Origin: a virus
Direction: 5' to 3' (one strand)
IMG/VR virus record: IMGVR_UViG_3300036846_000938
Span: 1-26,182 of that record
DNA: 26,182 nucleotides
The position numbers were made by a program, and so were the translations under genes. The notes below the pieces were generated by a model. That model saw only the letters and a list, made by a program, of their open reading frames with translations, ran no database searches and was not told where the DNA came from. Positions 3,454 to 18,977 of this stretch are shown here, in pieces (the first letter of the stretch is position 1; each line of letters begins with the position of its first letter).

Positions 3454-3635
3454 CAGACCTTCACCCCGATCGGGCGTGCTCGTCGCTCGCCTCGCGGCTT
3501 GGGCGCCTGCGGCTTGCCGTCGGGACCGGGCGGGTCGTAGAACAGCCACGCCCCGCAGTGCGGGCACCATTTTGAGCTGGGCGGACACTTGCGCTCGCAC
3601 TTGGGGCAGGTGGGGCGGAAGCGGTCGTAGCTCAC
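3450..3635 (-). CDS. Zinc-ribbon protein, 61 aa
   Basis: Starts at GTG 3633-3635 in a 4-nt overlap with the resolvase gene. A CPKC (residues 10-13) and a CPHC (24-27) pair make a classic zinc ribbon. The basic Pro-rich C-terminus (PKPRGERRARP) could touch nucleic acid. Probably a small nucleic-acid or protein adaptor; no specific role can be assigned. Confidence 0.7.
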   Translation of the reverse strand: MSYDRFRPTCPKCERKCPPSSKWCPHCGAWLFYDPPGPDGKPQAPKPRGERRARPIGVKVW

Positions 3636-3952: not shown

Positions 3953-4128
3953 CGTCTGTCCTTGTGGTGCGGCTGAACAGGCAGCAGCGTGTTGATCCAG
4001 ACCTCGCGCACATCTGTCGTCTCCTGCTCGATGTGCTTGCGAAGCTCGCCGCGTGTCTTGAATCGCGCCCCACAGGCGCACGTCGGGCGAGTGCTCTGCT
4101 TCGCCTCGTGCGACACGGCGCGGTTCAC
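3949..4128 (-). CDS. Small zinc-finger-like protein, 59 aa
   Basis: Starts at GTG 4126-4128, overlapping the upstream stop as GTGA. Residues 17-32, CACGARFKTRGELRKH, look like a C2H2-type finger with shortened Cys spacing, followed by IEQET. Basic overall, so DNA or RNA binding is plausible. Unknown function. Confidence 0.6.
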   Translation of the reverse strand: MNRAVSHEAKQSTRPTCACGARFKTRGELRKHIEQETTDVREVWINTLLPVQPHHKDRR

Positions 4129-4364: not shown

Positions 4365-4438
4365 TTGCCCCTCCCGGCGAAGACGATCGCGCCGAGCACG
4401 ACGAGGAAGAGCAGCGCGATGAACGTGGTCGTGTTCAC
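4361..4438 (-). CDS. Tiny single-pass membrane protein, 25 aa
   Basis: MNTTTFIALLFLVVLGAIVF is one hydrophobic segment, followed by AGRGK. Starts at GTG 4436-4438. It overlaps both neighbours by 4 nt, which argues it is a genuine small gene. Roles such as small holin-like or envelope-modifying peptide are only guesses. Confidence 0.6.
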   Translation of the reverse strand: MNTTTFIALLFLVVLGAIVFAGRGK

Positions 4439-5121
4439 CCGCCCGTCCCCTTGAGGCTCTGCAGGAAGCGGGCCTTCTCCTGGTGGGCGTAGTAGACGCA
4501 GGGCAGCACGACGTAGTAGCGCCCCGTCTGGTTGGTCTCGATCCCGAGGATCATCCCCATGTCGTCGACGAGCACGTCGAGGATCTCGGCGCCGTCCTCG
4601 GCGTCGTCGGGAACCAGGATCGTCCAAGATTTGCGCGCCCGCCCGCCGGTCCTGGTCGGGCGGGCGCGTGTGACGTGCCCACACGTCGGGCACTTCTCTG
4701 GCTCCCAGGGGTCGTCAGGAACTCGCGAGAGCGCGAGTGCTTCAGGAGTCAGAGGCTGCGGCTCGATCGGGGCCAAGGGGGTGATGACCTCGCCGACGCC
4801 GTAGCTCTCGTGGACCGTGCACCACATCCACGTCCAGTCGTAGTCTGGGCCGACGATCTTGATCGCCGCCCTGTGTCCGCCGACGCTGCCGGTGAGGTCG
4901 TCGTGGCAGCGGGCGCAGACGCCGGTCTTGTTCTGGTAGACGACGCCCTTGATCTCGACCCAGTCGAAGGGGGCACCCAGTCGTTGGTCGGTGCGGCGGA
5001 AGATGTGATGGGCGTGCTGGGCCTCGCGGCGGCAGCCGGGGTTGGAGCACCACGGCCCGACCTGATAGGCGGGACCGGCTACGCCGCGAAGCTGTGGGCC
5101 TTTCCAGGCGTTGAGCGTCAT
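4435..5121 (-). CDS. HNH-like zinc protein, 228 aa
   Basis: Starts at ATG 5119-5121 (ATGA overlap). Residues 25-73 hold C25, C30, the HAHH at 36-39 and C69-x2-C72-H73, with GGH at 81-83: the layout of an HNH/zinc-finger nuclease similar to phage Ref-like or NinG-like proteins. A second Cys pair, CPTCGH, lies near residue 145, followed by a basic linker and a C-terminal acidic-to-beta domain (about 170-228). Probably a recombination-linked or host-DNA-cutting nuclease; without alignment, catalysis is uncertain and a purely structural zinc fold is possible. Confidence 0.65.
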   Translation of the reverse strand: MTLNAWKGPQLRGVAGPAYQVGPWCSNPGCRREAQHAHHIFRRTDQRLGAPFDWVEIKGVVYQNKTGVCARCHDDLTGSVGGHRAAIKIVGPDYDWTWMWCTVHESYGVGEVITPLAPIEPQPLTPEALALSRVPDDPWEPEKCPTCGHVTRARPTRTGGRARKSWTILVPDDAEDGAEILDVLVDDMGMILGIETNQTGRYYVVLPCVYYAHQEKARFLQSLKGTGG

Positions 5122-5324
5122 AGCAGCGATCCTTGCTGGGCGATCCCGGTCTGGGCTTTGGCGCGGGCGCAGCGCCCGCACATCACGCGGCCGGTCTTGT
5201 GCCAGAAGCGGAGGTGGTGCAGCCCGCCCGTGCCCCTGGGGCGGTCGCGTGTCCAGCCGGTCGCCTCCTCCAGGCGGTCGGGGTCACGAGGGTTGACCTC
5301 CTCTCCACATTCGGCGCAGCTCAC
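5118..5324 (-). CDS. Zinc-ribbon protein, 68 aa
   Basis: Starts at GTG 5322-5324. Two Cys pairs, CAEC (residues 3-6) and CGRC (about 49-52), with HH and H in between (HHLRFWHKTG). Likely a treble-clef or ribbon zinc fold. It sits in 4-nt overlap with an HNH-like gene downstream and another Cys-rich small gene upstream, so this part of the operon is a cluster of zinc proteins. Confidence 0.65.
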   Translation of the reverse strand: MSCAECGEEVNPRDPDRLEEATGWTRDRPRGTGGLHHLRFWHKTGRVMCGRCARAKAQTGIAQQGSLL

Positions 5325-5479: not shown

Positions 5480-5595
5480 TGCTGCCTCCGAGACCACTCG
5501 TAGAGGGAGATCGTCCAGGCCGCGACGTAGAGGAAGAGGGCTGCCCCGCCGACGACGACGGCAACGACGGCCAGGATCGTCAGGAGCGGACTCAC
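5476..5595 (-). CDS. Small membrane protein, 39 aa
   Basis: GTG 5593-5595 to TGA 5476-5478. Residues 4-30 form one membrane span (LTILAVVAVVVGGAALFLYV), followed by SLYEWSRRQQ, giving a positively charged C-terminal end. Both ends overlap neighbours by 4 nt. Unknown role; second tiny membrane protein in this operon. Confidence 0.6.
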   Translation of the reverse strand: MSPLLTILAVVAVVVGGAALFLYVAAWTISLYEWSRRQQ

Positions 5596-6476
5596 CGCTC
5601 GCCCTCCCAGGCGGGGCAGTCGGAGCGGAACGAGCAGTAGTCGCAGGCGAAGATGTGGAACGTGCCGCGTGTCGGCCAGGGGCCGTCGGCGCCGTAGGTG
5701 CGCATGTAGTGGCTCATCTCGTCGACGAGCGCGAGGATCGTGCGCTGGTGGGCGTCGATCTGCGTCTGCGAGGGGTTGACGTACAGGGCCTCGCTCTCAA
5801 GCGGGGTGACGACGCCGACCTTGTGATCGGAGAGCGTGCAGGCGAGCGTGTGGAACTCAGCGGGCTTGCCGGTCGCGAACGAGTAGATCGCAGCCTGGAT
5901 CAGCCAGGCGGTCTTCGGCTTGTAGGTGCGCTGCTTGCCGCTCTTCCAGTCGATCACGGCAGGTTCGGTCAGGAGGTCGTAGCGCCCCTCGACCGGGACC
6001 GGGAGGCCCATCGGCACCGAGAACTTGCCCTCGACATCGAGCGGCTGTATCCGGGGCGAGACACGGTTGTGGTACTCGCCGACCATGAGACGGCCACGGG
6101 TCTTCGTGTCCTCGTAGGAGGTGTCCCAGACGATCTCGATCTCGTTCTTCTGTTCGTCGTTCCTGACCGTCTCGGCGAAGCCGAGGTCGTCGTACCACTC
6201 GATCACCTGGGTCAAGGGGAGGTCGACGCCGGTCTCGATCTTCTGCCGCATGTTCAGCTCGATCGCCGCGTGGACTGCGCTCCCGAGCGTCAGGTTCTCG
6301 GCGGGACGCTCGGGCTGGTCGAGCAGGTAGCGCTGCTGGAACTCACGCGGGCACTCGACGAACTTGCTCAGCATCGAGGGGCTAACGTGATCCATGCGCT
6401 TGAAGTCCGCGAACGGCCACACGGGGTCGCACTCGCGCAGCAGCTTGAGCTGCGAGGGGTCGATCGAGACGGTCAC
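5592..6476 (-). CDS. Cas4/RecB-like exonuclease
   Basis: Encodes 294 residues from GTG 6474-6476 (GTGA overlap). Motifs follow the Cas4/AddB-type PD-(D/E)XK exonuclease order: SPSMLSKFVECPREF with Cys42, GSAVHAAIE with His70, GRYDLL with Asp167, VIDWKSGK with Asp176 and Lys178, then QAAIYSF with a Gln helix. The C-terminal CDYCSFRSDC gives Cys278, 281 and 287, which with Cys42 would hold a 4Fe-4S cluster. It probably resects DNA ends for phage recombination with the SSB-type protein two genes upstream. Phage Cas4-like proteins can also affect CRISPR adaptation in other systems; nothing here shows that. Confidence 0.85.
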   Translation of the reverse strand: MTVSIDPSQLKLLRECDPVWPFADFKRMDHVSPSMLSKFVECPREFQQRYLLDQPERPAENLTLGSAVHAAIELNMRQKIETGVDLPLTQVIEWYDDLGFAETVRNDEQKNEIEIVWDTSYEDTKTRGRLMVGEYHNRVSPRIQPLDVEGKFSVPMGLPVPVEGRYDLLTEPAVIDWKSGKQRTYKPKTAWLIQAAIYSFATGKPAEFHTLACTLSDHKVGVVTPLESEALYVNPSQTQIDAHQRTILALVDEMSHYMRTYGADGPWPTRGTFHIFACDYCSFRSDCPAWEGER

Positions 6477-6817
6477 CCAGCGGCCTCCCACAGCGTCAGG
6501 CCCTCGGTCACGATCGGGGTGAGCCAGAGGTCGTACTCGACCTTGCCCCCGAACTGAGGCCGGGCACGGAAGAAGGCGCCGGGCGTGAGGCCGTCGAGGC
6601 CCGCTCCGTAGTTGCGCGGTGCGAACCCTCGTGCCCCGAGCTTGAGCAGCCACTCGGCCAGCTCGGCGTCGTCAGTCAGGCAGAAGACGCGCTCTTCGCG
6701 CATGCGGTAGACACGACCGCCGCGCTCGCGGATCTCGGCGAGCAGCTCCGCACCGTCGCGAGCAGGCTCGGGGGGACGGAAGGAGAACGACGTATCGACG
6801 ACCCTGAGGTGCGACAT
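6473..6817 (-). CDS. Hypothetical protein, 114 aa
   Basis: ATG 6815-6817 with GAGG about 6 nt upstream, overlapping the exonuclease start by 4 nt. Sequence: short beta N-terminus, helix ARDGAELLAEIRERGGRVYR, then AELAEWLLKLGARGF and a Tyr/Trp-containing C-terminus. No known domain identified. Position between an SSB-type gene and an exonuclease suggests a recombination or replication accessory role. Confidence 0.65.
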   Translation of the reverse strand: MSHLRVVDTSFSFRPPEPARDGAELLAEIRERGGRVYRMREERVFCLTDDAELAEWLLKLGARGFAPRNYGAGLDGLTPGAFFRARPQFGGKVEYDLWLTPIVTEGLTLWEAAG

Positions 6818-6825
6818 GGCCGACC

Positions 6826-7401
6826 TCAGAAGGGGATGTCTTCGTCGTCACCGACCGGCTCGGCTGGGTCATCGTAGGCGCCGGGCGACCTCCCCACGCC
6901 AGCGGGGACCGCGTTCGGCCCGAGCGCATCGCGACTGGGCAGCGGCGTCAGGTAGATCCGCTGAGCGAACTCGTAGGCGAGTGCCCAGATGAACTCGAAG
7001 TCCACGTCCCGCTGCAGGCTGGGCGCGAGCTGCACGGCGCGCTCGCTGCCGACCGAGAGCGAGATCCGCCAGGCTTCGCCTTCGCTCGTCTCGGGCTTGG
7101 TCGCCTTGACACGGGTGATCCCGTCGTCACCGTTGGGCGACGGCGCCTCAGCCTCCTTGGCCGAGTACCAGTAGAAGTCGTGGTAGAAGCCGCCGTGCGG
7201 GTTGGGCTTGTCGTTGCGCTCGGCGTACTGGATCTGGATCAGGTTGCGCTCGACCTTGTGCCGACCGGCCTCGGAGCCGCCCTCCTCGCGGTTGGTCTTC
7301 AGCTTCTTCGGGTGTCCGTCGGTCGAGATCGAGTACCACCCGTTCGCCTCCTCCACGTCGATGACGTGTAAGGGATCGCTTGTCTTCAGGTCCACAGCCA
7401 T
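6826..7401 (-). CDS. Single-stranded DNA-binding-type protein
   Basis: Encodes 191 residues from ATG at 7399-7401, with GGGAGG about 6 nt upstream. The first 140 residues contain beta-rich segments consistent with an OB-like fold (NGWYSISTDG, HDFYWYSAKEAEA, WRISLSVGSERAV). The last 30 are disordered and acidic and end DDEDIPF, the classic SSB C-terminal tip that recruits partner proteins. That tail is the main basis for the call; the core is not obviously a bacterial SSB domain. It heads the recombination operon together with the Cas4-like exonuclease. Confidence 0.7.
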   Translation of the reverse strand: MAVDLKTSDPLHVIDVEEANGWYSISTDGHPKKLKTNREEGGSEAGRHKVERNLIQIQYAERNDKPNPHGGFYHDFYWYSAKEAEAPSPNGDDGITRVKATKPETSEGEAWRISLSVGSERAVQLAPSLQRDVDFEFIWALAYEFAQRIYLTPLPSRDALGPNAVPAGVGRSPGAYDDPAEPVGDDEDIPF

Positions 7402-7849: not shown

Positions 7850-8126
7850 CTTTTAGCCGGTCCTAACTCGCCAAAAAAAAGTTCGCAAATAGCGACATTT
7901 CGTTTTGGTGAATGAGGGGGTGGTCGCGAAAGGGGGTTCCGTGCCCGGCCGCAGAAGCCATGGCTGCGCCACCGCGTAACGCTCGCCTCCTCCGATTCCC
8001 TTCCTGCCCCATCTCATTGCCCCATTAGGCGAAAAGATGAGAGAGCAACCGGACCGTATCGGTTCTCGGTTGCGCGGGCAAGGTCTATGCTTCGGGGCGT
8101 CAGGAACTCGCGAGGAAGGGGAGCCG
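7850..8126. other. AT-rich control region between divergent genes
   Basis: The lowest-GC part of the left half lies at about 7848-7915, with an A8 run and AACTTTT/AAAAGTT in inverted positions. No gene is supported: the frame opening at 8037 lacks a Shine-Dalgarno. It probably holds the divergent promoters of the repressor operon and of the 8127 gene. Confidence 0.5.
8045..8091 (+). promoter_or_regulatory. Candidate promoter with inverted repeat
   Basis: TTCTCG (8063-8068), a 17-bp spacer and TATGCT (8086-8091) could be -35/-10 elements for the 8127 gene. The -35 overlaps an inverted repeat, GCAACCG (8045-8051) and CGGTTGC (8067-8073), which would suit a repressor site. Weak hexamers, so tentative. 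Confidence 0.35.
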
Positions 8127-8861
8127 ATGCCCGACCTCGCCGAACGTGTGCAGCGGGTGCGCCTGCTGCTGGAGACGCTCAACGACCCCTACCCGCCGCC
8201 GGGGACGACGCTGCGCCCGGACTCAGGCCCGGCGCCGAGCCGGTATGTTCCCTGTGAGACCTGCAAACGGAAGGGCGAGGTCAGGGTCAAGGGCGGCTTC
8301 CAGCTCTGCCTGATCTGCGACGGGATCGGCTGGAAGCGGCGCGAGGGCGAGCCGGAGTGGGACGCCTACATCGAGCTGCCGCTCGATCAGGCAGCCGAGC
8401 TGCCGGTTCCGATCGCGCCGAAGGCGCAGCCGCCCTCGGGGGTCGAGGACAGCTACGCCTGGGAGCGCGAGCGGGCGCGCTACGACCGCCACGGCTCCTA
8501 CGCCGAGCTGCGGCTGCAGCTCGACCGGCTCGCGCTTGTGCGCCCGTACGGTTACCGTCTCGTGCGTGCCGTGCTCGTCGAGCACGAGCGGCGGGCGCTC
8601 GACGAGCACGCGGCCCGCGAGCTGGAGCTGGCCGTCCTACAGCTCACGCTGTGGATGCGGAGCGTGAAGGTGCCCGGCTGGCTGATCGAGCGCACCAAGG
8701 CCGACGAGCGCCGCGAGACGCTCGACGAGCTGGCCGCTGCCGGGTTGACGGCAGGAGAGATCGCCCGTGTGCTCGGTCTCCCGAAGGAGACCGTGAGTCG
8801 CAAGTTGAAGCGCCGTCCGGTAGGCTCCAAGAGCGCTGGAATCCCGGCAACGGCGATGTGA
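8127..8861 (+). CDS. Zinc-finger and HTH regulator, 244 aa
   Basis: Starts at ATG 8127 with GGAAGGGGAG just upstream; an in-frame ATG at 8037 has no such site. Residues 47-72 carry CETC...CLIC in the manner of a DnaJ-type zinc ribbon (CETCKRKGEV, GGFQLCLICDGIGW). The middle (about 115-200) is helical and Arg/Leu-rich. The C-terminus (about 205-232) is a clean HTH: LTAGEIARVLGLPKETVSRK. Transcribed away from the XRE repressor, it is placed like an early or late-switch activator. Target sites unknown. Confidence 0.75.
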   Translation: MPDLAERVQRVRLLLETLNDPYPPPGTTLRPDSGPAPSRYVPCETCKRKGEVRVKGGFQLCLICDGIGWKRREGEPEWDAYIELPLDQAAELPVPIAPKAQPPSGVEDSYAWERERARYDRHGSYAELRLQLDRLALVRPYGYRLVRAVLVEHERRALDEHAARELELAVLQLTLWMRSVKVPGWLIERTKADERRETLDELAAAGLTAGEIARVLGLPKETVSRKLKRRPVGSKSAGIPATAM

Positions 8862-8862
8862 G

Positions 8863-8899
8863 GCGTGAGGGCGATGACGGGCGCAGCGCGCCCTCACGC
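8863..8899. terminator. Hairpin between convergent genes
   Basis: GCGTGAGGGCG (8863-8873) pairs perfectly over 11 bp with CGCCCTCACGC (8889-8899). It starts one base after the end of the rightward regulator gene and sits 27 bp from the stop of the leftward array, so it probably ends transcription from both sides. No strong T-run. Confidence 0.65.
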
Positions 8900-8919
8900 G
8901 AACAAGGATTCCTCCTCCT
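8898..8919 (-). repeat. 22-nt inverted bracket, left copy
   Basis: The minus strand contains AGGAGGAGGAATCCTTG followed by TTCGC. The plus strand at 14173-14194 has the same 22 nt with one difference. The two copies face each other around the entire small-gene array. It looks like a Shine-Dalgarno plus TTG start, but here the frame closes after three codons. Confidence 0.7.
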
Positions 8920-8925
8920 CATGAG

Positions 8926-9144
8926 CTACCGCTCTGTCTCTTCGTGGGTGAGACCAGCCCTGGTCGCTGCGTTCAGAAGCCTGCTCATCTCCACGGGTGC
9001 CGACGAGAGCACGATACGTCCGGCGTCCACGACGAAGATCGGGTCGCTCACGTAGCTGTCGACGAAGTCGACTCCGGCATCGGTCGTGCCCTCGACGAGG
9101 GTGACCATGAACTCGCCGCTGTGGGTGAGGTTGAGGTCAGTCAT
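8926..9144 (-). CDS. Array gene 1: hypothetical, 72 aa
   Basis: Last gene of the leftward small-gene array. ATG 9142-9144 with AAGGAGG 5-6 nt upstream. Acidic and beta-rich (GEFMVTLVEG, DPIFVVDAGRIVLSS), ending in a helix (MSRLLNAATRAGL). Not recognised. Cytoplasmic; no signal or membrane segment. Confidence 0.7.
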   Translation of the reverse strand: MTDLNLTHSGEFMVTLVEGTTDAGVDFVDSYVSDPIFVVDAGRIVLSSAPVEMSRLLNAATRAGLTHEETER

Positions 9145-9149
9145 GTGAC

Positions 9150-9187
9150 TCCTCCTTGGTTGGGGAAGACGGGGACGTTAGTCCCCG
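9150..9187 (-). promoter_or_regulatory. Modular start element S1
   Basis: Hairpin GGGGAC-GTTA-GTCCCC, leader with CTTCCCCAACC, then AAGGAGG for array gene 1. Here the upstream stop (9194) lies just before the hairpin. Confidence 0.8.
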
Positions 9188-9193
9188 CGTGCG

Positions 9194-9376
9194 CTACTCG
9201 ATCGTGACGGACAGCTCTTCGCCGTCCTTCCAGCCGATCTCGCCGAGCGCGGCCTTGCGGACGTAGAGCGTGCCGATCTTCGGCTCCAGCTCTCCCTCAA
9301 CGACCTCGTCGAACTTCCAGGTGCCCTTCGTCTCCTTCGCGGGAGCGAAGCGGATGGTCAGAGTTGTCTCTGGCAT
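9194..9376 (-). CDS. Array gene 2: small beta protein, 60 aa
   Basis: ATG 9374-9376 directed by AAGGAGG. The pattern TLTIRFAPAKETKGTWKFDE, then IGTLYVRKAALGEIG and a final VTIE resembles a small beta-sheet protein repeatedly seen in phages and bacterial genomes (KETKxTxxFxE...GxLYVxK), of unknown function. The family likeness is from memory, not a search. Confidence 0.75.
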   Translation of the reverse strand: MPETTLTIRFAPAKETKGTWKFDEVVEGELEPKIGTLYVRKAALGEIGWKDGEELSVTIE

Positions 9377-9381
9377 GGTGA

Positions 9382-9419
9382 TCCTCCTTGTAGTTGGGAA
9401 GACGGGGACGTAGTCCCCG
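9382..9419 (-). promoter_or_regulatory. Modular start element S2
   Basis: Hairpin GGGGAC-GTA-GTCCCC, leader CTTCCCAACTACAAGGAGG for array gene 2. The hairpin stem is nearly that of S1. Confidence 0.8.
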
Positions 9420-9423
9420 CTGG

Positions 9424-9642
9424 TCACGCCTCAGGCAGCTCGATCTTGACGACCTTGGCGTAGTCGTAGTCGTCGTACTCGGTGAGCAGGTTGATGCGGT
9501 AGACCTCTGCGGTGCCGCGAGTCTTGAAGCCGCCGTGCAGCTCGACGGAGTCCCAGCCCTTACCTCGGGCCTCGACGCCGTAGAAGTAGCCGCCTGTCGG
9601 CAGCATGATGTAGCTCGGCTTGAGTGGGTCGTGCATCGGCAT
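9424..9642 (-). CDS. Array gene 3: hypothetical, 72 aa
   Basis: ATG 9640-9642 with AAGGAGG upstream. Gly- and Tyr-rich: PSYIMLPTGGYFYGVEARG, WDSVELHGGFKTRG, then an acidic YDDYDYAKVVKIEL end. Probably a compact beta fold. No family recognised. Confidence 0.7.
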   Translation of the reverse strand: MPMHDPLKPSYIMLPTGGYFYGVEARGKGWDSVELHGGFKTRGTAEVYRINLLTEYDDYDYAKVVKIELPEA

Positions 9643-9646
9643 GGAT

Positions 9647-9682
9647 GCCTCCTTGTGTAGGGAAGACGCCCCGTCAGGGGCG
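9647..9682 (-). promoter_or_regulatory. Modular start element S3
   Basis: Hairpin CGCCCC-GTCA-GGGGCG; the TGA stop of array gene 4 (9674-9676) spans loop and stem. Leader CTTCCCTACACAAGGAGG. Confidence 0.8.
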
Positions 9683-9871
9683 CCGAGCAGCACGATCTGC
9701 TGCCCAGTGCTCGATCTGCGACCGGGTCCAGAGCGGGAAGTACGAGACGACAGCGACAGGTTCGGGTGCGCGGCCTTCGGCTCGTGCGAGCTTGAAGCCG
9801 GAGAGCGAGAGGCCAGACAGCTCCGCTGCCTCTGCCTGCCCGATCAGCTCGGCGGGGTCGACGGTGGTCAT
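9674..9871 (-). CDS. Array gene 4: small HTH protein, 65 aa
   Basis: ATG 9869-9871 overlaps the upstream stop as ATGA. Residues 8-60 look like an AlpA/excisionase-type winged HTH: ELIGQAEAAELSGLSLSGFK, then PEPVAVVSYFPLWTRSQIEHW. Probably a DNA-binding regulator acting within the phage. One of only two array genes joined by overlap instead of the modular element. Confidence 0.7.
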   Translation of the reverse strand: MTTVDPAELIGQAEAAELSGLSLSGFKLARAEGRAPEPVAVVSYFPLWTRSQIEHWAADRAARRP

Positions 9872-10050
9872 GGCGCGATCTCGATCGCGACGACCTTGAC
9901 GCAGTCTTCAGGGGCGATGTGCTCCTCTTCGTCACTGCCCGAGTCGAAGTAACGGACGATGTTCTCATCGTCCTCGCGTGCGGGCATCCAGGTCCCGAGC
10001 AGGGCAGGCGGCTCCGACTCGATGTCGACGACGACGTGTAGCACGGTCAT
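9868..10050 (-). CDS. Array gene 5: acidic protein, 60 aa
   Basis: ATG 10048-10050, AAGGAGG upstream. Beta start (MTVLHVVVDIE), then strongly acidic (DSGSDEEEHIAPEDC) and a closing strand KVVAIEI. Translationally coupled to the HTH gene downstream, so the two may work as a pair. Not recognised. Confidence 0.7.
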   Translation of the reverse strand: MTVLHVVVDIESEPPALLGTWMPAREDDENIVRYFDSGSDEEEHIAPEDCVKVVAIEIAP

Positions 10051-10053
10051 GGT

Positions 10054-10094
10054 TCCTCCTTGTAGTTGGAAGACGGGGGTCAAGGTTGACCCCC
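10054..10094 (-). promoter_or_regulatory. Modular start element S4
   Basis: Hairpin GGGGGTCAA-GG-TTGACCCCC (9-bp stem) upstream of a leader with CTTCCAACTACAAGGAGG. One C of the leader is missing. Confidence 0.8.
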
Positions 10095-10098
10095 CTTG

Positions 10099-10257
10099 CT
10101 ACTTGTGGCCCTGGTCGAAGCAGTCGACGCAGACGTAGCGCTTGCCGCCCTTGGCGCGGCAGTAGGCGCGCTCGTCGCAGACGGCGCAGAGCGTCCACTT
10201 GGCGTAGGCGCCCCAGCGCTCCCAGAGCGCGATCGCACGAGCCTCCAGGTTGGTCAT
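10099..10257 (-). CDS. Array gene 6: zinc-ribbon protein, 52 aa
   Basis: ATG 10255-10257 in ATGA overlap with array gene 7. CAVC (24-27), C33 and CVDC (43-46) form a zinc ribbon with a basic loop (RAKGGKRYV). Helical N-terminus (ARAIALWERWGAYAKW). Likely a small nucleic-acid or protein-binding adaptor. Confidence 0.7.
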   Translation of the reverse strand: MTNLEARAIALWERWGAYAKWTLCAVCDERAYCRAKGGKRYVCVDCFDQGHK

Positions 10258-10526
10258 CGGGTGAAGCCCAGCTCGCGGGCGGCGCGATCGATCATCGCGT
10301 CGACCTCGGCGGTCTTGCCGACGACACGAGCCGAGTCGTCGCCGACGAAGATGACGCGGGCCTCGGGGTACTCCTCGACCTCGCCACCAGCCCACCAGGC
10401 CCCGACGTAGTCGGGGTTGTTGAAGGTGCCGGGCCGTAGCTCGTTGACCTTCCAGATCACCTGCATCCACTCGCAAGAGTCGATGTACTCGCCCTCGGGC
10501 GGGTGCTGATTGCAGCGGAATGACAC
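10254..10526 (-). CDS. Array gene 7: hypothetical, 90 aa
   Basis: GTG 10524-10526, AAGGAGG 5 nt upstream. It starts MSFRCNQHPPEG, has a Trp-rich middle (CEWMQVIWKVNEL, YVGAWWAGGEVEEY), a VIFVGDDSARVVG strand-turn and a C-terminal helix. No domain recognised. Overlaps array gene 6. Confidence 0.7.
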   Translation of the reverse strand: MSFRCNQHPPEGEYIDSCEWMQVIWKVNELRPGTFNNPDYVGAWWAGGEVEEYPEARVIFVGDDSARVVGKTAEVDAMIDRAARELGFTR

Positions 10527-10530
10527 GATT

Positions 10531-10564
10531 TCCTCCTTGTGTTGGGAAGACGCCCCGAAGGGCG
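10531..10564 (-). promoter_or_regulatory. Modular start element S5
   Basis: Hairpin CGCCC-CGAA-GGGCG, leader CTTCCCAACACAAGGAGG. The hairpin is identical to that of S9. Confidence 0.8.
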
Positions 10565-10569
10565 TTGGC

Positions 10570-10785
10570 TCAGCGAGTGAGCGTGAGCGCGGTGTAGCCG
10601 CAGGCGTCACCTGAGGCGTGGTCGACCCAGACCTCGACGAAGCGGCCATCCTCGTGGTTGGCGGTGAACCACTCGCCACCCTTGACGCGATCGTAGGCCC
10701 ACTCGACGCTGTCGGCGTCCTGCTCTTCTCCGAGGTCGGCCAGAAGGCCGTTCAGGAAGTAGACGGGATCGGTGTACGTGGTCAC
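10570..10785 (-). CDS. Array gene 8: acidic protein, 71 aa
   Basis: GTG 10783-10785 directed by AAGGAGG. VYFLNGLLADLGEEQDADSV is an acidic helix; the rest is Trp/Gly-rich (GGEWFTANHEDGRFVEVWVD) and ends YTALTLTR. Possibly a single alpha/beta domain. Not recognised. Confidence 0.7.
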   Translation of the reverse strand: MTTYTDPVYFLNGLLADLGEEQDADSVEWAYDRVKGGEWFTANHEDGRFVEVWVDHASGDACGYTALTLTR

Positions 10786-10788
10786 GGT

Positions 10789-10826
10789 TCCTCCTTGTTG
10801 GGAAGACAACCCCGCTAAGCGGGGTT
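10789..10826 (-). promoter_or_regulatory. Modular start element S6
   Basis: Hairpin AACCCCGC-TAA-GCGGGGTT (8-bp stem); the TAG stop of array gene 9 (10815-10817) is in the loop/stem junction. Short leader CTTCCCAACAAGGAGG. Confidence 0.85.
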
Positions 10827-11033
10827 CGGGGTGAAGCGGGCCGCGCTGGCGTCGAAGTTCTCGGCGCCGTTGGGAAGGCTCGCGACCATGGTCGGGATGC
10901 GGCCAGTACCGTCGCCACGGTAGAGAGCGCGAACGACCACAGTGTTGTCCTCCAAGAGGACAAGTGAAAGTCGACCGTTCGGCGTCTTCACGTCGAGGAC
11001 GGTGTCCTCGTGGCTGAGGGTTGCGAACTGCAT
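10815..11033 (-). CDS. Array gene 9: beta-rich protein, 72 aa
   Basis: ATG 11031-11033. Alternating hydrophobic strands (TVLDVKTPNGRLSLVLLEDN, TVVVRALYRGDG) and a C-terminal NFDASAARFTPNPA whose last codons form half of the S6 hairpin. No family recognised. Confidence 0.7.
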   Translation of the reverse strand: MQFATLSHEDTVLDVKTPNGRLSLVLLEDNTVVVRALYRGDGTGRIPTMVASLPNGAENFDASAARFTPNPA

Positions 11034-11037
11034 GATT

Positions 11038-11073
11038 CCTCCTTGTTGGGAAGACGAGGGGCTATGCCCCTCG
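11038..11073 (-). promoter_or_regulatory. Modular start element S7
   Basis: Hairpin CGAGGGGC-TAT-GCCCCTCG with the TAG stop of array gene 10 (11062-11064) in the loop. Short leader CTTCCCAACAAGGAGG. Confidence 0.85.
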
Positions 11074-11412
11074 CGCCTCGCGGCGGTCGTTCAGCCAGTG
11101 TCCGGCCTTCTCCAGCGCGTACCACGCGAGCAGACAGTCGAAGCCCAGAGGGCTGTCGGCCATGTCGGAGCGCGTGAAGTCGGCCACGAAGGTGAGCACC
11201 GAGTCAGCACCGAAGTCGTCGGCGTCTTCCTGGAGCAAGCTCCAGATCAGCTCGCGGTTCCCGGCGGTGAAGTCTGCGCCGTCGGACGTGTAGGTGAAGC
11301 CGCCGAACCCGGAGTCGGCACCGTAGGTGCCAGCGTCACGGATCGACGACAGCTCTAGGGAGCTGTGCTCGCGGATTGCCCGCAAGAGGCAAACAGCCTG
11401 TTCGTCGGTCAT
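11062..11412 (-). CDS. Array gene 10: hypothetical, 116 aa
   Basis: ATG 11410-11412. Helical start (DEQAVCLLRAIREHSSLELS), central Gly/Asp-rich part (GADSGFGGFTYTSDGADF), then a long helical half with AWYALEKAGHWLND. Its final RREARGA codons are one arm of the S7 hairpin. Not recognised. Confidence 0.7.
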   Translation of the reverse strand: MTDEQAVCLLRAIREHSSLELSSIRDAGTYGADSGFGGFTYTSDGADFTAGNRELIWSLLQEDADDFGADSVLTFVADFTRSDMADSPLGFDCLLAWYALEKAGHWLNDRREARGA

Positions 11413-11416
11413 GGTT

Positions 11417-11455
11417 TCTCCTTGTGTAGGGAAGACGGATGGCTAGTGCCATCCG
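11417..11455 (-). promoter_or_regulatory. Modular start element S8
   Basis: Hairpin CGGATGGC-TAGT-GCCATCCG holding the stop of array gene 11 (11443-11445). The ribosome site is AAGGAGA, one base from the consensus. Confidence 0.8.
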
Positions 11456-11760
11456 CAGCCGATCTGCCCACAGCTCGGGCAGTAGGCGTCCTCGTCGAGG
11501 ACGGTCAGCTCGGCGGGGTCGAACTCAAACGGGCGGTCGTCTCCGACCATGTGCGCCATGATGCGCCCGGTCGGGTTCACGATCCCGGTCCACTCGGTGT
11601 CCTCGTCGGCCTCGACCTGGAAGCCATCGGCCCGCCAGGCGATCCCGTCCCAGCCTTCGGCTGAGTAGGTCGCGTCGAAGTCGAAGTCGAACGGCGCCGT
11701 CGCGTAGTTGTTGATGCGGTTGTAGCGCTGCTGCACGATGAACTCGTCGCCAGCTTTCAT
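11443..11760 (-). CDS. Array gene 11: hypothetical with C-terminal Cys cluster
   Basis: ATG 11758-11760 gives 105 residues. The N-terminal half is aromatic and acidic (QQRYNRINNYATAPFDFDFD), the middle is Trp-rich (DGIAWRADGFQVEADED), and the end CPSCGQIGCGWH can bind zinc. Unknown role. Confidence 0.7.
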   Translation of the reverse strand: MKAGDEFIVQQRYNRINNYATAPFDFDFDATYSAEGWDGIAWRADGFQVEADEDTEWTGIVNPTGRIMAHMVGDDRPFEFDPAELTVLDEDAYCPSCGQIGCGWH

Positions 11761-11767
11761 GGTTATT

Positions 11768-11800
11768 CCTCCTTGTGTTGGGAAGACGCCCCGAAGGGCG
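11768..11800 (-). promoter_or_regulatory. Modular start element S9
   Basis: Hairpin CGCCC-CGAA-GGGCG and leader CTTCCCAACACAAGGAGG. The stop of array gene 12 lies 5 bp before the hairpin. Confidence 0.8.
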
Positions 11801-11804
11801 TTGT

Positions 11805-12092
11805 CTAGCTGGTGAAGCCGCCAGGCCCGACTGCACGGCCGGGGTGGCCGCGCTCGTCCGAGCCGACCCACTCGTTGACCGCGAAGTCGTCGATGTCCAG
11901 GCCGCGAGCGGCCAGCATCGCCATCGCGGAGAAGTACGCACGCCGGGCCGCAGCTTCGACGCCTTGCGTCGTCGGCACCTCGATCAGCATCGCATCGAAG
12001 CGGCCGGTGGTCGGGACGATCTCAAAGACGTAGCGGTCGAGGTGGCCGAGCGGCTTCTCGTTGCAGAGATTGATCAGTGTCGAATCGTTCAC
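11805..12092 (-). CDS. Array gene 12: hypothetical, 95 aa
   Basis: GTG 12090-12092 with AAGGAGG upstream. Begins NDSTLINLCNEKPLGHLDRY, has strands YVFEIVPTTGRFDAMLIEVP and a helix VEAAARRAYFSAMAMLAARG, then DERGHPGRAVGPGG. Mixed alpha/beta, not recognised. Confidence 0.7.
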   Translation of the reverse strand: MNDSTLINLCNEKPLGHLDRYVFEIVPTTGRFDAMLIEVPTTQGVEAAARRAYFSAMAMLAARGLDIDDFAVNEWVGSDERGHPGRAVGPGGFTS

Positions 12093-12096
12093 GATT

Positions 12097-12135
12097 CCTC
12101 CTTGTGTAGGGAAGACAACGGGGCTAAAGCCCCGT
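12097..12135 (-). promoter_or_regulatory. Modular start element S10
   Basis: Hairpin ACGGGGCT-AA-AGCCCCGT; the TAG of array gene 13 (12124-12126) is at the loop. Leader CTTCCCTACACAAGGAGG. Confidence 0.85.
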
Positions 12136-12327
12136 GCCCCTGTCGTAGGCGTCGACGATCGTCCTACGGACGATGGGGTCGAGCTTGGACAGGTCGGTCG
12201 TGCGGTCGTCGATCGCCTCGGCCGAGTAGATGAGTACGTCACTGTCGCTCGGGTCGACGAGTCGACCTTCCTGCCCCAGGATGAAGGCAGCGTCGACGAT
12301 GCGAACGAGCCAGGTGCGTTGACTCAT
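12124..12327 (-). CDS. Array gene 13: hypothetical, 67 aa
   Basis: ATG 12325-12327. RTWLVRIVDAAFILGQEGRL, then DSDVLIYSAEAIDDRTTDLS and a C-terminal helix ending DRGTGL. Acidic alpha/beta protein without recognised domain. Confidence 0.7.
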   Translation of the reverse strand: MSQRTWLVRIVDAAFILGQEGRLVDPSDSDVLIYSAEAIDDRTTDLSKLDPIVRRTIVDAYDRGTGL

Positions 12328-12333
12328 GGGAAT

Positions 12334-12371
12334 CCTCCTTGTGTAGGGAAGACGTCTCCGTTAGGAGACGT
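12334..12371 (-). promoter_or_regulatory. Modular start element S11
   Basis: Hairpin ACGTCTCC-GTTA-GGAGACGT with the TAA stop of array gene 14 (12361-12363) in the loop. Leader CTTCCCTACACAAGGAGG. Confidence 0.85.
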
Positions 12372-12768
12372 AGAGCTTGCCGTCGTCGCCGACGTAAACG
12401 TCGGACGTTCCGTACGACTTGCACAGCTCGGTGAGCTGTCTGCCGATCGCGGCGCCGAGCCGTTGGGAGGTCTGCCTACTACCTTCGTAGTAGCGATCCC
12501 AGAAGCCCGCCCCGTGACCGTTACGGGTCAGCCACAGGTCGTGGCCGAGCCGCTCTGGCGTCCAGAACTGGTCCCAGTTCCAGACCTCGTCGCCGATCAG
12601 GTCGAGGAAGTCTTCAACCGTTTCGTGGATCGAGGTGTTAGCCTCATCGGCGAAGTCGTATAGCTCGTAAGAGCCGTCCAGCGGTTCGCCTTCGTCGTCG
12701 GTTGACGACCAGAGCGCGCACTCCATGTAGCCGAGCACGACGGCCTCGATCGTTGTCTGAGTAGCCAT
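12361..12768 (-). CDS. Array gene 14: conserved phage protein, 135 aa
   Basis: ATG 12766-12768. The C-terminal half (GHDLWLTRNGHGAGFWDRYY, then a helix and VYVGDDGKLYV) is a pattern I recognise from many unrelated phages, where the family has no known function. N-terminal part: ECALWSSTDDEGEPLDGSYE and an acidic helix. Best-conserved member of the array. Confidence 0.8.
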   Translation of the reverse strand: MATQTTIEAVVLGYMECALWSSTDDEGEPLDGSYELYDFADEANTSIHETVEDFLDLIGDEVWNWDQFWTPERLGHDLWLTRNGHGAGFWDRYYEGSRQTSQRLGAAIGRQLTELCKSYGTSDVYVGDDGKLYVS

Positions 12769-12774
12769 CGAAAT

Positions 12775-12808
12775 CCTCCTTGTGTTGGAAGACGCCCCGT
12801 AAGGGGCG
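12775..12808 (-). promoter_or_regulatory. Modular start element S12
   Basis: Hairpin CGCCCC-GTAA-GGGGCG; leader CTTCCAACACAAGGAGG with one C missing. The upstream stop lies 5 bp before the hairpin. Confidence 0.8.
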
Positions 12809-12812
12809 CTGG

Positions 12813-13178
12813 TTACCAGACGAGGTGCTGCGGAATGTTCATCTCCGCTGCGATCTCGGCTTCCTGCTGCCGGTAGTGCTCCTGCGCCTCGGCTTCCTGC
12901 TGAGCAAGCTCGGCGCGGAAAGCCGGGGTCACGTAGTAGTCGACGTGACCGTAGAAGCCGGGGCCGTAGCTCTGCTTCCTGGCGAAGCCAGCCGCGACCA
13001 GGGCCTCGCAGATCGACCAGGGGTCGAGCGGATTATCGGGGTTGAACCAGCCGATATGACCGCTGTCTTCGTTGTAGTCGAAGACTCCCTGGAAACTGCG
13101 ACCGCTGCCGTCCATCGGCATCGAAGCGTCGAAGACGCTGATCTTGTGGTCGACGATGTTGGCGATCGTGATTCTCAC
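12813..13178 (-). CDS. Array gene 15: hypothetical with helical tail, 121 aa
   Basis: GTG 13176-13178. Beta-rich N-terminus (ITIANIVDHKISVFDASM), then FDYNEDSGHIGWFNPDNPLD, an aromatic YGPGFYGHVDYYVT, and a Glu/Gln-rich C-terminal helix of about 30 residues that could form a coiled coil. Not recognised. Confidence 0.7.
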   Translation of the reverse strand: MRITIANIVDHKISVFDASMPMDGSGRSFQGVFDYNEDSGHIGWFNPDNPLDPWSICEALVAAGFARKQSYGPGFYGHVDYYVTPAFRAELAQQEAEAQEHYRQQEAEIAAEMNIPQHLVW

Positions 13179-13182
13179 GATT

Positions 13183-13221
13183 CCTCCTTGTGTTGGGAAA
13201 ACGAGGGGTTAGAACCCCTCG
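13183..13221 (-). promoter_or_regulatory. Modular start element S13
   Basis: Hairpin CGAGGGGTT-AG-AACCCCTCG (9-bp stem) with the TAA of array gene 16 (13209-13211) at the loop. The leader reads TTTTCCC instead of TCTTCCC. Confidence 0.85.
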
Positions 13222-13499
13222 CCGTCGTCCCACTCGGCGTACTCGTTGTCGAGTGAGGCGAAAGCCTCAGTGGCCTTCTCGATCGTCGGGAACTTCTCGA
13301 CGTAGACGAAGCCGAGCGAGTCGCAGTAGAGCAGGGTGCGGTCGAAGCGAGCAAACCAGCCCGTAGGGCTGTCGACGTCGCCAGAGGCCTCGTCGTAGCT
13401 GCTGTCGAGGCTGAGCAGGTAGCAGGCAGCCGCTCGGCGGGAACCGCCGAACTTGTACGGGCTGACGACCTCGCGCACCCCATCGCTGAAAGCGGTCAT
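13209..13499 (-). CDS. Array gene 16: hypothetical, 96 aa
   Basis: ATG 13497-13499. FSDGVREVVSPYKFGGSRRA, then AACYLLSLDSSYDEASGDVD, SLGFVYVEKFPTIEKATEAF and an acidic end. Single alpha/beta domain likely. Not recognised. Confidence 0.7.
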   Translation of the reverse strand: MTAFSDGVREVVSPYKFGGSRRAAACYLLSLDSSYDEASGDVDSPTGWFARFDRTLLYCDSLGFVYVEKFPTIEKATEAFASLDNEYAEWDDGEGF

Positions 13500-13506
13500 T
13501 GTGATT

Positions 13507-13543
13507 CCTCCTTGTTGGGAAGACGAGCAGCTAACGCTGCTCG
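13507..13543 (-). promoter_or_regulatory. Modular start element S14
   Basis: Hairpin CGAGCAGC-TAAC-GCTGCTCG with the TAG of array gene 17 (13531-13533) across the loop. Short leader CTTCCCAACAAGGAGG. Confidence 0.85.
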
Positions 13544-13794
13544 ACGATCGAGGGTTTGCCGACGCCCTGAGCGCGCAGGAGGGCCAAAGGCCCATGGGCA
13601 TGCTCTCGCTCGGCGACGGCGTGAGCGAACTTCAACTGGTCGAAAGCAGGGTTGCCTTCGGCAAAGTAGGCCACGGTCGGGGCATACAGCTCGTTGTAAA
13701 CGAGCGTCCGAGCGTTCTCGCCGCCCGCCATGTAGGCAGCAGCGAGCGAGCGTCCGATGATCTCGGCGAAGGTGACGTAGTCACGGCGGGACAT
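13531..13794 (-). CDS. Array gene 17: helical protein, 87 aa
   Basis: ATG 13792-13794. Mostly helical: SRRDYVTFAEIIGRSLAAAY, ARTLVYNELYAPTVAYFAEG, FDQLKFAHAVAEREHAHGPL. No domain recognised; no membrane segment. Confidence 0.7.
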   Translation of the reverse strand: MSRRDYVTFAEIIGRSLAAAYMAGGENARTLVYNELYAPTVAYFAEGNPAFDQLKFAHAVAEREHAHGPLALLRAQGVGKPSIVEQR

Positions 13795-13800
13795 GTGAAT

Positions 13801-13837
13801 CCTCCTTGTGTAGGGAAGACGAGGGCCGAAGGCCCTC
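13801..13837 (-). promoter_or_regulatory. Modular start element S15
   Basis: Hairpin GAGGGCC-GAA-GGCCCTC; the TAG of array gene 18 abuts it. Leader CTTCCCTACACAAGGAGG. Confidence 0.85.
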
Positions 13838-13981
13838 CTACTGCGTGTTGTATTTCCGCTCCATTTCGGAGCACCAGCGGTCATACTCAGCCTTTTCGGC
13901 TGTCTTGCGGGCCTCTGCGGCCTGCTTGACGCGGGCCTGCTGGATTCTGGTCGTTTCCGATTGGGAAATCTCGTGGCGCAT
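13838..13981 (-). CDS. Array gene 18: small charged helix protein, 47 aa
   Basis: ATG 13979-13981, preceded by AAGGAGC 6 nt upstream. The product is a single charged helix (TTRIQQARVKQAAEARKTAE, then KAEYDRWCSEMERKYN) with no other domain. First gene of the leftward array, so expressed earliest from a promoter in the 13982-14456 region. A longer upstream extension of this frame ignores the ribosome site and is not used. Confidence 0.65.
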   Translation of the reverse strand: MRHEISQSETTRIQQARVKQAAEARKTAEKAEYDRWCSEMERKYNTQ

Positions 13982-13985
13982 GTTT

Positions 13986-14051
13986 GCTCCTTGTGTTGGG
14001 AAGACCGGAGCGAACTGCTCGCGAGTGCACGACTGCACAAGCTTCGCTCCG
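13986..14051 (-). promoter_or_regulatory. Modular start element S16 with long stem-loop
   Basis: Leader CTTCCCAACACAAGGAGC at the head of the array. Instead of a short hairpin it has CGGAGCGAA (14006-14014) pairing perfectly over 9 bp with TTCGCTCCG (14043-14051), enclosing GTGCA-CGAC-TGCAC (14025-14038). This is a larger structured leader than in any downstream copy. Confidence 0.65.
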
Positions 14052-14172
14052 TCGTTTCGGCTCTCCCTCGTGCGTCATAATCCGCGCTGTGTGAGCCAGC
14101 GAGCAAAGCTCGCTCCGGCCGTCACCGGTCATCAGTTCCACGCACAGCGGGAAGGAATCACACGAGGGTTCA

Positions 14173-14194
14173 AGGAGGAGGAATCCTTGATCGC
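14173..14194 (+). repeat. 22-nt inverted bracket, right copy
   Basis: AGGAGGAGGAATCCTTG followed by ATCGC matches, inverted, the copy at 8898-8919 in 21 of 22 positions. It contains a Shine-Dalgarno-like run and a TTG 8 nt later. Confidence 0.7.
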
Positions 14195-14348
14195 CTACCA
14201 GCAAGCTGGCATCGGGATGCCCCTGGCTTCGTCCGGCGGCACACGGTTCCGAGTGAGCGAATCTGCTCGGAGCGTCAGGCCATCACCATCGAGTGGGGGA
14301 ACCTCAGACCGGCATACCAGCCACGCTTTCGACTACTGCGCTGGGTGA
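14187..14348 (+). CDS. Possible short ORF from TTG, 53 aa
   Basis: TTG 14187 follows AAGGAGGAGG with good spacing and gives IAYQQAGIGMPLASSGGTRF and onwards to TGA 14346-14348. From about 14260 another forward frame has more coding-like wobble use (ITIEWGNLRPAYQPRFRLLR, to a TAG just before the next gene) but lacks a start. This may be a frameshifted gene or non-coding control DNA. Confidence 0.25.
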   Translation: MIAYQQAGIGMPLASSGGTRFRVSESARSVRPSPSSGGTSDRHTSHAFDYCAG

Positions 14349-14456
14349 CACCGGCCAACTGCGACGCCACCAATCTAGCCCGGCAGGCCACCCTAGCTGC
14401 GCCCCCCAAAGGTATTGAGTTGACCTGGCCGATGGTCTAGGTCGAAGGGAGGACGA

Positions 14457-15095
14457 ATGGACGACACCGTAGGTGAGGTAGTACCGGTCGCCGTTAGCCC
14501 GACCGGCAACAGTCTCGCGCATGACGGGGATGACGCGCCGGTAGCGCCCAAGCTAGGCTCGCTCGCCTGGTTGCACGCCCAGGGCACGGTCGAGCACCTG
14601 GGGGCGCAAGTGCCTACCTGCCATCGCATCCCCACCGATGCCAGCCTGACGGAGGCGGACGGCTCACGCTGCAGGGTCGTGCTCGCAAGCGGGGACAGAT
14701 GCAAGGGCACACGCCTGAAGGTCTTCGGGCTATGCATGGGCCACGCGGGCGGTGGGGGCACAAGGGATCTCCCTGCTATGCAGGAACGATCGAACACGAA
14801 ACGGAGTCAGCTAAAGCTGACCAAGCAGATACTTGGCTACGGGCCGAAACGTGCTGCCGACCCTCGCGTAGCAGTGCGGCTGCGCGCTGCGCAGCAGGCC
14901 AACGAGATAGCCATTGCCGTCGTAGACGAACCGCTGAGAGCAGAGCTGCCGGTGCTTGATAAGCAGCGAGCTATGCTCGCTGTCCTCGACGCTGCGTTCC
15001 CCTTGCAACAAGCGACTTTGTCGCTTGAGATCAGCGAGCCAGACAGCATGGCCTGGCAGGATCTTGAGGCCTTAGCCTCCAGCTTGGACAGCTGA
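14457..15095 (+). CDS. Zinc-motif protein, possibly small-terminase-like
   Basis: Encodes 212 residues, ATG 14457 with GGGAGG 4-5 nt upstream. Residues about 65-95 hold C62/C79/C90/H95-type positions in SRCRVVLASGDRCKG and LCMGHAGGGG, followed by a basic helical region and an alpha-helical C-terminal half. A short Cys/His knuckle ending in HGG-like glycines and then helices is often seen in actinophage proteins annotated as small terminase subunits. Its distance from terL (6 kb) weakens that reading; a regulator is also possible. The 3' half has unusual short palindromes. Confidence 0.6.
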   Translation: MDDTVGEVVPVAVSPTGNSLAHDGDDAPVAPKLGSLAWLHAQGTVEHLGAQVPTCHRIPTDASLTEADGSRCRVVLASGDRCKGTRLKVFGLCMGHAGGGGTRDLPAMQERSNTKRSQLKLTKQILGYGPKRAADPRVAVRLRAAQQANEIAIAVVDEPLRAELPVLDKQRAMLAVLDAAFPLQQATLSLEISEPDSMAWQDLEALASSLDS

Positions 15096-18769: not shown

Positions 18770-18797
18770 TCCTCCTTCGGTTGGGAACGACTAACCG
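18770..18797 (-). promoter_or_regulatory. Modular start element S17 (diverged)
   Basis: TTCCCAACCGAAGGAGG before the 18766 gene, with CGGTT (18778-18782) and AACCG (18793-18797) as the only stem. The only copy of the element serving a gene outside the main array. Confidence 0.6.
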
Positions 18798-18933
18798 TAG
18801 AGAGAAGCGTGCCAGCGTGAGGTTCGCCTCCCCCGAGCGGCCAGTCCGCACAGAGTCTCTCACAAACCGGACGTTGCATTACCGCTACGCTGACGATCAA
18901 CGCGGGCAGGGTTGTGCGTTCCTCGGAGCCGCA

Positions 18934-18977
18934 CCCTCCTTGTGTTGGGAACGAGGGCGTCCTTCGGGGCGCCCTCG
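18934..18977 (-). promoter_or_regulatory. Orphan modular element S18
   Basis: Minus-strand TTCCCAACACAAGGAGG with a perfect 8-bp hairpin CGAGGGCG/CGCCCTCG (18952-18959, 18970-18977) but no properly spaced gene: a GTG directly abuts the GGAGG and opens only 24 codons. The hairpin may also serve the rightward tail gene region. Confidence 0.6.

Follow-up and report, generated by a model that had tools for sequence, protein, structure and literature searches.

Gene-specific paired hairpins and lineage-specific leader tags at gene starts in the small-gene arrays of uncultured soil phages

We analyzed a phage record of 26,182 nt and 66% GC (IMG/VR record IMGVR_UViG_3300036846_000938; the whole stretch is called the window here) that contains an array of 18 small genes on the minus strand (8926-13981). 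Nearly every gene in the array is preceded by a hairpin whose stem is specific to that gene, followed directly by a leader of the form GTCTTCCC-(spacer)-AAGGAGG ahead of the start codon. We found that pairing, rather than stem sequence, is what selection keeps in these hairpins. We also report here that the leader is lineage-specific, and that transferred genes swap their tag, the constant part of the leader beside the hairpin, for that of the new genome. The whole sequence set consists of metagenomic contigs (handles beginning with G or L), and copy counts exceed the number of independent evolutionary events.

Architecture of the array junctions and selection on pairing

The leader is present at 16 of the 18 array genes, with zero matches expected by chance. 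A sequence-only reading of the window had described the order hairpin, leader, start at these junctions, and this was borne out: a perfect stem adjoins the leader at all 16. Fifteen of the stems are 6-8 bp long with loops of 3-4 nt. At the first gene (start 13981), the element immediately adjoining the leader is a 9-bp stem carrying a 28-nt apical part (14006-14051). Neither hairpin nor leader precedes the other two array genes, which begin near 10257 and 9871 and overlap with the preceding gene's stop codon. Some details of the earlier description needed correction. Stems do vary between copies, but not all are unique (12 distinct arms among the 15 short hairpins). The leader is fixed over the roughly 10 nt beside the hairpin and at the Shine-Dalgarno (SD) sequence, but the spacer between them varies. 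The upstream stop codon, said to lie in the loop or stem at about half of the junctions, occupies the loop in 8 cases out of the 15, precedes the hairpin by 0-6 nt in the other 7, and never falls in a stem arm.

Fourteen related soil-phage contigs show the same architecture, at 130 tested junctions. Leaders were initially located by pattern search, which divergent copies may escape; isolated pattern matches in L010-L014, L016-L019, L021 and L022 are mostly chance-like. The 3' end of the hairpin lies 19-34 nt upstream of the start codon. Directly 3' of the stem is the tag of about 10 nt at near 2 bits per position, part of which was fixed by the search pattern while the flanking positions were not. 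It is followed by an A/C-rich spacer of variable length and sequence (mostly 0.3-1.1 bits) and then by the SD. The stop codon of the upstream gene falls within the loop at 38 junctions, up to 9 nt before the hairpin at 43, and in the 3' arm or beyond at 2.

The suggestion that pairing itself is selected was upheld by three comparisons. When 5' arms were reshuffled among the junctions of one genome, a test that is not conditioned on the presence of a hairpin, re-dealt stems averaged 3.7-5.0 bp, compared with 7.5 bp for the own stems of the 130 junctions. None of 200 re-deals reached the own-stem mean in any of the 14 contigs. A strict stem is present at 116 of 141 leader-anchored sites, versus 5% of shuffled upstream sequences, 9% of random positions and 13% of other sites with an SD and ATG. 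MAFFT put the variable arms out of register. In place of a covariance model, we therefore worked with registers centred on the loop and with arm re-dealing. Among 21 hairpins with 4-nt loops from the close lineage of the window, 98.6% of cells are paired, both sides vary at all seven pairs, and the covariation score is 1.167, versus 0.226 for shuffled and 0.18-0.33 for slid controls; these hairpins were preselected as paired, so the scores inform on how pairs vary and not on their existence. When arms are combined across copies, about 3 of 6 positions pair, and arm identity is 0.38-0.61 depending on the genome. Only these cross-copy values were used, since the 6/6 pairing of own arms results from selection of the hairpins and does not count as evidence. 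At orthologous junctions the stem is rebuilt in different letters even though one arm is coding. For example, at the junction 3' of the gene starting at 12768, the window has ACGTCTCC-taac-GGAGACGT, whose first arm consists of the final codons, while G002 has ACGTCACC-taac-GGTGACGT and G001 has ACCTCTC-gtaa-GAGAGGT.

The loops carry a strand-specific signature. Among the 66 loops of four bases, UNCG or GNRA sequences number 25 when the coding strand is read, versus 5 on the other strand (p=3e-4); for UNCG alone the counts are 14 and 0. The hairpins are also more stable as sense than as antisense RNA (-16.1 versus -15.1 kcal/mol, p=6e-5). G.T significantly outnumbered A.C, by 45 to 20, with lenient scoring, and showed no significant excess with strict scoring. 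The RNA-type tetraloops on the coding strand point to the array transcript: the hairpin is probably read at the RNA level. An RNA control module, one of several possibilities raised by the sequence-only reading, is thus the one that best fits the loops and the sense-strand stability. Rfam 15 gave no match at the junctions and one sub-threshold match elsewhere in the window.

A longer structure opens many arrays. It has the form RTCGAAAGG-stem-GAAGC-hairpin-GCGAGC-stem, usually adjoins the leader, and keeps its form across lineages whose tags differ. We found it in G006, its near-copy L237, G008, G009, G013, G016, G024 and L258; the first gene of the window (14006-14051, minus strand) has a version without RTCGAAAGG. 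This element possibly marks where the array transcript begins or serves as a site for a regulator. We also considered the hairpin as a mere 3' element of the upstream gene, since exchanged units include the hairpin and stops sit inside it. We dropped this idea because the first genes of arrays also have a leader-adjoining stem. The array-opening elements are located as follows.

L258, 9370 (+)
G006, 43886 (-)
G008, 19562 (-)
G009, 34057 (+)
G013, 10960 (-)
G016, 11622 (+)
G024, 8885 (+)

The array of the window, 8926-13981 (-), includes 18 small genes, the two with overlapping starts (near 10257 and 9871) lacking a module. In the modules listed below, each stem is followed by the leader.

13985-14051 (-): array-opening module, first gene (start 13981); 9-bp stem CGGAGCGAA/TTCGCTCCG with the 28-nt apical part
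13800-13837 (-): gene 13531-13794; GAGGGCC-ttc-GGCCCTC
13506-13543 (-): gene 13209-13499; CGAGCAGC-gtta-GCTGCTCG; upstream stop in loop
13182-13221 (-): gene 12813-13178; CGAGGGGT-tcta-ACCCCTCG; upstream stop in loop
12774-12808 (-): gene 12361-12768; CGCCCC-ttac-GGGGCG
12333-12371 (-): gene 12124-12327; ACGTCTCC-taac-GGAGACGT; upstream stop in loop; paired changes in G001 and G002
12096-12135 (-): gene 11805-12092; ACGGGGC-ttta-GCCCCGT; upstream stop in loop
11767-11801 (-): gene 11443-11760; ACGCCC-ttcg-GGGCGT
11416-11455 (-): gene 11062-11412; CGGATGGC-acta-GCCATCCG; upstream stop in loop
11037-11073 (-): gene 10815-11033; CGAGGGGC-ata-GCCCCTCG; upstream stop in loop
10789-10826 (-): gene 10570-10785; AACCCCGC-tta-GCGGGGTT; upstream stop in loop
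10531-10565 (-): gene 10254-10526; ACGCCC-ttcg-GGGCGT
10054-10094 (-): gene 9868-10050; GGGGGTCA-acct-TGACCCCC
9647-9682 (-): gene 9424-9642; CGCCCC-tgac-GGGGCG; upstream stop in loop
9382-9419 (-): gene 9194-9376; CGGGGAC-tac-GTCCCCG
9150-9187 (-): gene 8926-9144; CGGGGAC-taac-GTCCCCG

Two outlying copies had been counted as having the same order. The one near 18958 does, with a 10-nt loop, but all that precedes the leader near 18793 is a long imperfect stem. They belong to a second small operon (18772-18977, minus strand), in which the outer copy precedes a 24-codon GTG frame and its hairpin overlaps a tail gene on the opposite strand.

18935-18977 (-): copy A; 8-bp stem CGAGGGCG/CGCCCTCG running into GTTCCCAACACAAGGAGG, before the short GTG frame
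18772-18846 (-): copy B; TTCCCAACCGAAGGAGG ahead of the gene starting at 18766

Lineage-specific tags and gain and loss of units

The leader takes a different form in each lineage (GTCTTCCCAAC, CTCGGTCAACC, CTCGATCA, CGTCAGTCAACC, CACCCACGAA and CCGACAG). The tags are distributed as follows.

GTCTTCCCAAC: window, G001, G002
CTCGGTCAACC and close forms: G006, G008, G009, G016, G024
CACGGTCA: G023
CTCGATCACTC: G013
CGTCAGTCAACC: G032, G033
CTCCAGGC-hairpin-CACCCACGAA: G028, G031
CCGACAG: G029, G030
CACGAAAGG: G026

Junctions in G028 (3300024232_000019) and G031 (3300021082_000105) have two hairpins; a fixed CTCCAGGC separates the pair, and CACCCACGAAGGAGG follows the second one. In these two contigs the variable hairpin is therefore flanked by a constant part on both sides.

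We compared array genes between lineages by taking all array proteins, identifying their orthologs in contigs with other tags without requiring a tag, and inspecting the sequence upstream. Among 49 cross-lineage orthologs, 38 carry the resident tag and none carries only the donor tag. One of the remainder has the resident tag together with a chance match, and 10 have no tag or a start overlap. Thus, a gene that crosses lineages shows the tag of its new genome and an unrelated yet paired hairpin. This pattern could mean either that the tag is read by a lineage-matched factor or that transferred genes are inserted between resident modules.

Array genes show high turnover, and closely related contigs differ by whole units. 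Over the array, G006 matches L237 at 99.5% identity apart from two entire genes, of 190 and 335 bp, that one contig has and the other lacks. The first junction of this difference lies inside a 12-nt CTCGGTCAACCA common to both flanking leaders. The second lies at the leader with a few bases altered, and the upstream stop changes from TGA to TAG within the loop. G009 and L258 have one unit in common, consisting of an ArdC-type gene plus the hairpin at its 3' end; their similarity ends at the tag. These unit-wise differences at leaders indicate that repeated leaders can serve as recombination partners. Recombination between leaders accounts for neither the hairpin nor its RNA-type loops.

The shared gene (G009 34828, plus strand, and its L258 counterpart) codes for an ArdC-type anti-restriction protein (ArdcN 1.8e-32, MPTase-PolyVal 2.5e-39), and its open frame runs without a stop up to the next module. 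The presence of this gene suggests that the arrays may hold host-interaction genes.

Proposed function of the module and rival explanations

We propose, with a little less than even confidence, that each junction is an mRNA start module in which the hairpin parts two genes and the tag and SD mark the next start. The 5' half, the gene-specific perfect hairpin, would refold after the upstream ribosome terminates, which it can do because the stop codon is placed either within the loop or 0-9 nt ahead of the stem. The 3' half would present a single-stranded tag of about 10 nt common to the genes of one phage, followed by the variable A/C-rich spacer, a strong SD and the start codon. By keeping upstream ribosomes off the leader, the hairpin would isolate neighboring genes, with termination-reinitiation coupling absent. 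A lineage-matched trans-acting factor would recognize the tag and promote or time translation of each tagged gene, and units could be gained or lost singly while each gene is still independently expressed. The effect on translation and the tag-reading factor are what we infer; the proposal is supported by the re-deal and covariation tests, the RNA-type loops, the greater sense stability and the fixed placement before the start codon. It is further supported by the absence of the module exactly where genes overlap, by the leader-adjoining structure at the first genes, by conservation of the tag while the spacer varies, and by the prevalence of the resident tag among cross-lineage orthologs.

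Other observations count against this proposal. In folding models, the hairpin has almost no influence on how accessible the leader is (0.57, versus 0.55 with shuffled upstream sequence). Searching 87 early and array proteins against Pfam, PHROGs and PADLOC identified no RNA-binding protein or other tag reader. Uniformity of the tag could also stem from homogenization of repeats and not from recognition. A bolder version of the start module, which we regard as rather unlikely, is an address-tag system: each lineage would place its own RNA tag at the foot of an arbitrary hairpin, a cognate phage factor would license or time all tagged genes, and foreign small genes would become useful only with the resident tag. 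If this is true, the tag is the plug-in grammar of a rapidly exchanged accessory array.

The main rival, to which we give somewhat less credence still, accommodates most of the same facts through RNA processing at the boundary between hairpin and tag. A phage or host endonuclease would cut the hairpin at its foot. The upstream message would then end in a 3' hairpin and the downstream message would begin with the tag and SD, giving separate stable messages from a single transcript. The stem foot meets the tag at a nearly constant place, a stem conserved only in structure with a sequence-constant 3' flank would suit an enzyme that reads the foot, and the tag varies by lineage as the specificity of a phage enzyme would. 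However, no RNase-like or RNA-processing family was found among the 87 early and array proteins, and a stop codon in the loop means that the terminating ribosome unfolds the hairpin. Alternatively, each gene might be followed by a transcription attenuator or weak terminator formed by the hairpin, and the leader might signal pausing or antitermination. GC-rich hairpins of 6-10 bp with UUCG-type loops beside stop codons do resemble terminator stems, and some hairpins in L252 are followed by TTTT. Intrinsic terminators also have a U-rich tract directly after the stem, and here the 8 nt after the stem contain at most 4 T (mean 0.5-3.1 by genome, 14 genomes); no junction scored as terminator-like in our scan. 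Terminators before 16 genes would, moreover, shut the array down unless an antiterminator were present, and we know of none in this phage. Because no lineage of the 14-contig set has a U-tract, we consider attenuation unlikely, and clearly more so than processing.

The sequence-only reading had also raised a recombination handle for small genes. Integron attC sites resemble the array in their co-oriented small genes, junction hairpins that are kept in structure and variable in sequence, and unit-wise gain and loss. A DNA-level cassette site of this kind would fit the gene turnover, the two one-unit events between G006 and L237, which match the whole-unit gain and loss of integrons, and the end of homology at the tag between G009 and L258. 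The part of the idea that stands is that units come and go at the leader. It does not explain the hairpin: loops on the coding strand are RNA-type, the arms of adjacent copies differ from each other, leaders by themselves suffice as direct repeats, and array genes entered by overlap lack a module. Whereas attC hairpins are long and imperfect with conserved boxes and extrahelical bases, the array has perfect stems of 6-12 bp without attC boxes, loops of mostly 3-5 nt, a ribosome-binding site (RBS) per unit and a lineage-specific tag. We therefore view a cassette site as improbable. Kinship with the start-associated sequences (SAS) and extended SAS (ESAS) of cluster K mycobacteriophages, of which the idea had reminded the sequence-only reading although the sequence differs, would make the hairpins protein-bound DNA inverted repeats that include a promoter for each gene. 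The two systems share a position just upstream of the RBS of many genes in the non-structural half of the genome, a constant part that includes the SD, an inverted repeat (before about half of the SAS copies in cluster K) and group-specific repeats, since in cluster K the inverted-repeat consensus varies with the subcluster (PMC3203893). ESAS arms, however, are copies of one conserved 17-bp sequence, for which the authors found little support for mRNA hairpins (PMC3203893), and ESAS hold SigA-like promoter hexamers (PMC11373665). The array modules differ in their gene-specific arms, kept pairing, RNA-type loops and constant part adjoining the stem. They also lack sequence-conserved inverted repeats, and a scan limited to the sigma-70 consensus found no promoter-like match, SigA-like hexamers included, in the array region (8500-14600). 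The 13-bp SAS GGGATAGGAGCCC is absent from the RBS, where the constant part is GTCTTCCC..AAGGAGG, with other tags in the relatives. In phage Anaya, the same scan found the SAS as described, with an abutting hairpin at 1 of 16 copies and ESAS arms that repeat one sequence. An ESAS-like element is the least probable of these explanations, and we find no support for such a kinship.

The modules make two questions testable: how long arrays of unrelated small genes are expressed independently from one transcript, and how small genes move between phages and gain function. The tags also provide a simple means to find such array genes, possibly host-interaction genes, in uncultured phages.

Related systems, phage group and neighboring genes

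Phage T4 has stable C(UUCG)G hairpins between genes and near stop codons, which are reminiscent of the array but are not known to occur once per gene of an array. We know of no constant, lineage-specific tag following them. N4-type single-strand hairpin promoters combine a conserved hairpin sequence with a giant virion RNA polymerase; the hairpin sequences here are not conserved, and the longest open frame in the relatives has 2560 codons. No matching system was found in the literature on intercistronic or standby hairpins. Start-associated repeats of Microbacterium phage clusters EC, EF and EG and the 17-bp dyad repeats of cluster O mycobacteriophages likewise occur in many copies 14-30 bp upstream of starts in a single orientation, but they are described as conserved sequences or palindromes without gene-specific hairpins (PMC7302621). 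The array modules could be functionally analogous to these repeats and to the SAS and ESAS; the comparison does not support membership in those groups. Start-associated repeats of actinobacterial phages have been described since 2011, and to our knowledge have no known mechanism; their inverted repeats looked DNA-type. The group analyzed here adds unmistakable selection on pairing, an RNA-type signature and a lineage-wide code adopted by incoming genes.

The window contains integrase, excisionase-like, resolvase, exonuclease, terminase and portal-type genes. The integrase is a phage tyrosine integrase (PHROGs/Pfam), and the terminase and portal-type genes were assigned from position and conservation. 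A terminase search of viral contigs gave 55 relatives, mostly at 72-88% identity. The closest annotated phage by terminase, MW202803, is just 29.5% identical and lacks any repeated leader of the array type. A terminase profile search of one genome from each of 84,980 species found no prophage. The phage of the window is a member of an uncultured group of soil viruses of bacteria.

Several neighboring genes may bear on the array. A plus-strand gene at 8037-8861 is convergent with the array at its far end and kept in 11 related contigs; its product has a zinc-ribbon-like CxxC part and a C-terminal helix-turn-helix, which makes it a candidate array regulator. The minus-strand gene at 4435-5181 codes for a 248-aa protein conserved in 20 related contigs, with cysteine/histidine pairs that recall HNH nucleases; no family match was found for it. 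Also on the minus strand are genes for a RusA-like resolvase (3632-4081), a PD-(D/E)XK exonuclease (5592-6653) and a protein with an SSB-like acidic tail (DDEDIPF; 6826-7401), a predicted recombination set that could power unit exchange between leaders. Inverted copies of AGGAGGAGGAATCCTTG at 8903-8920 and 14172-14189 bracket the array.

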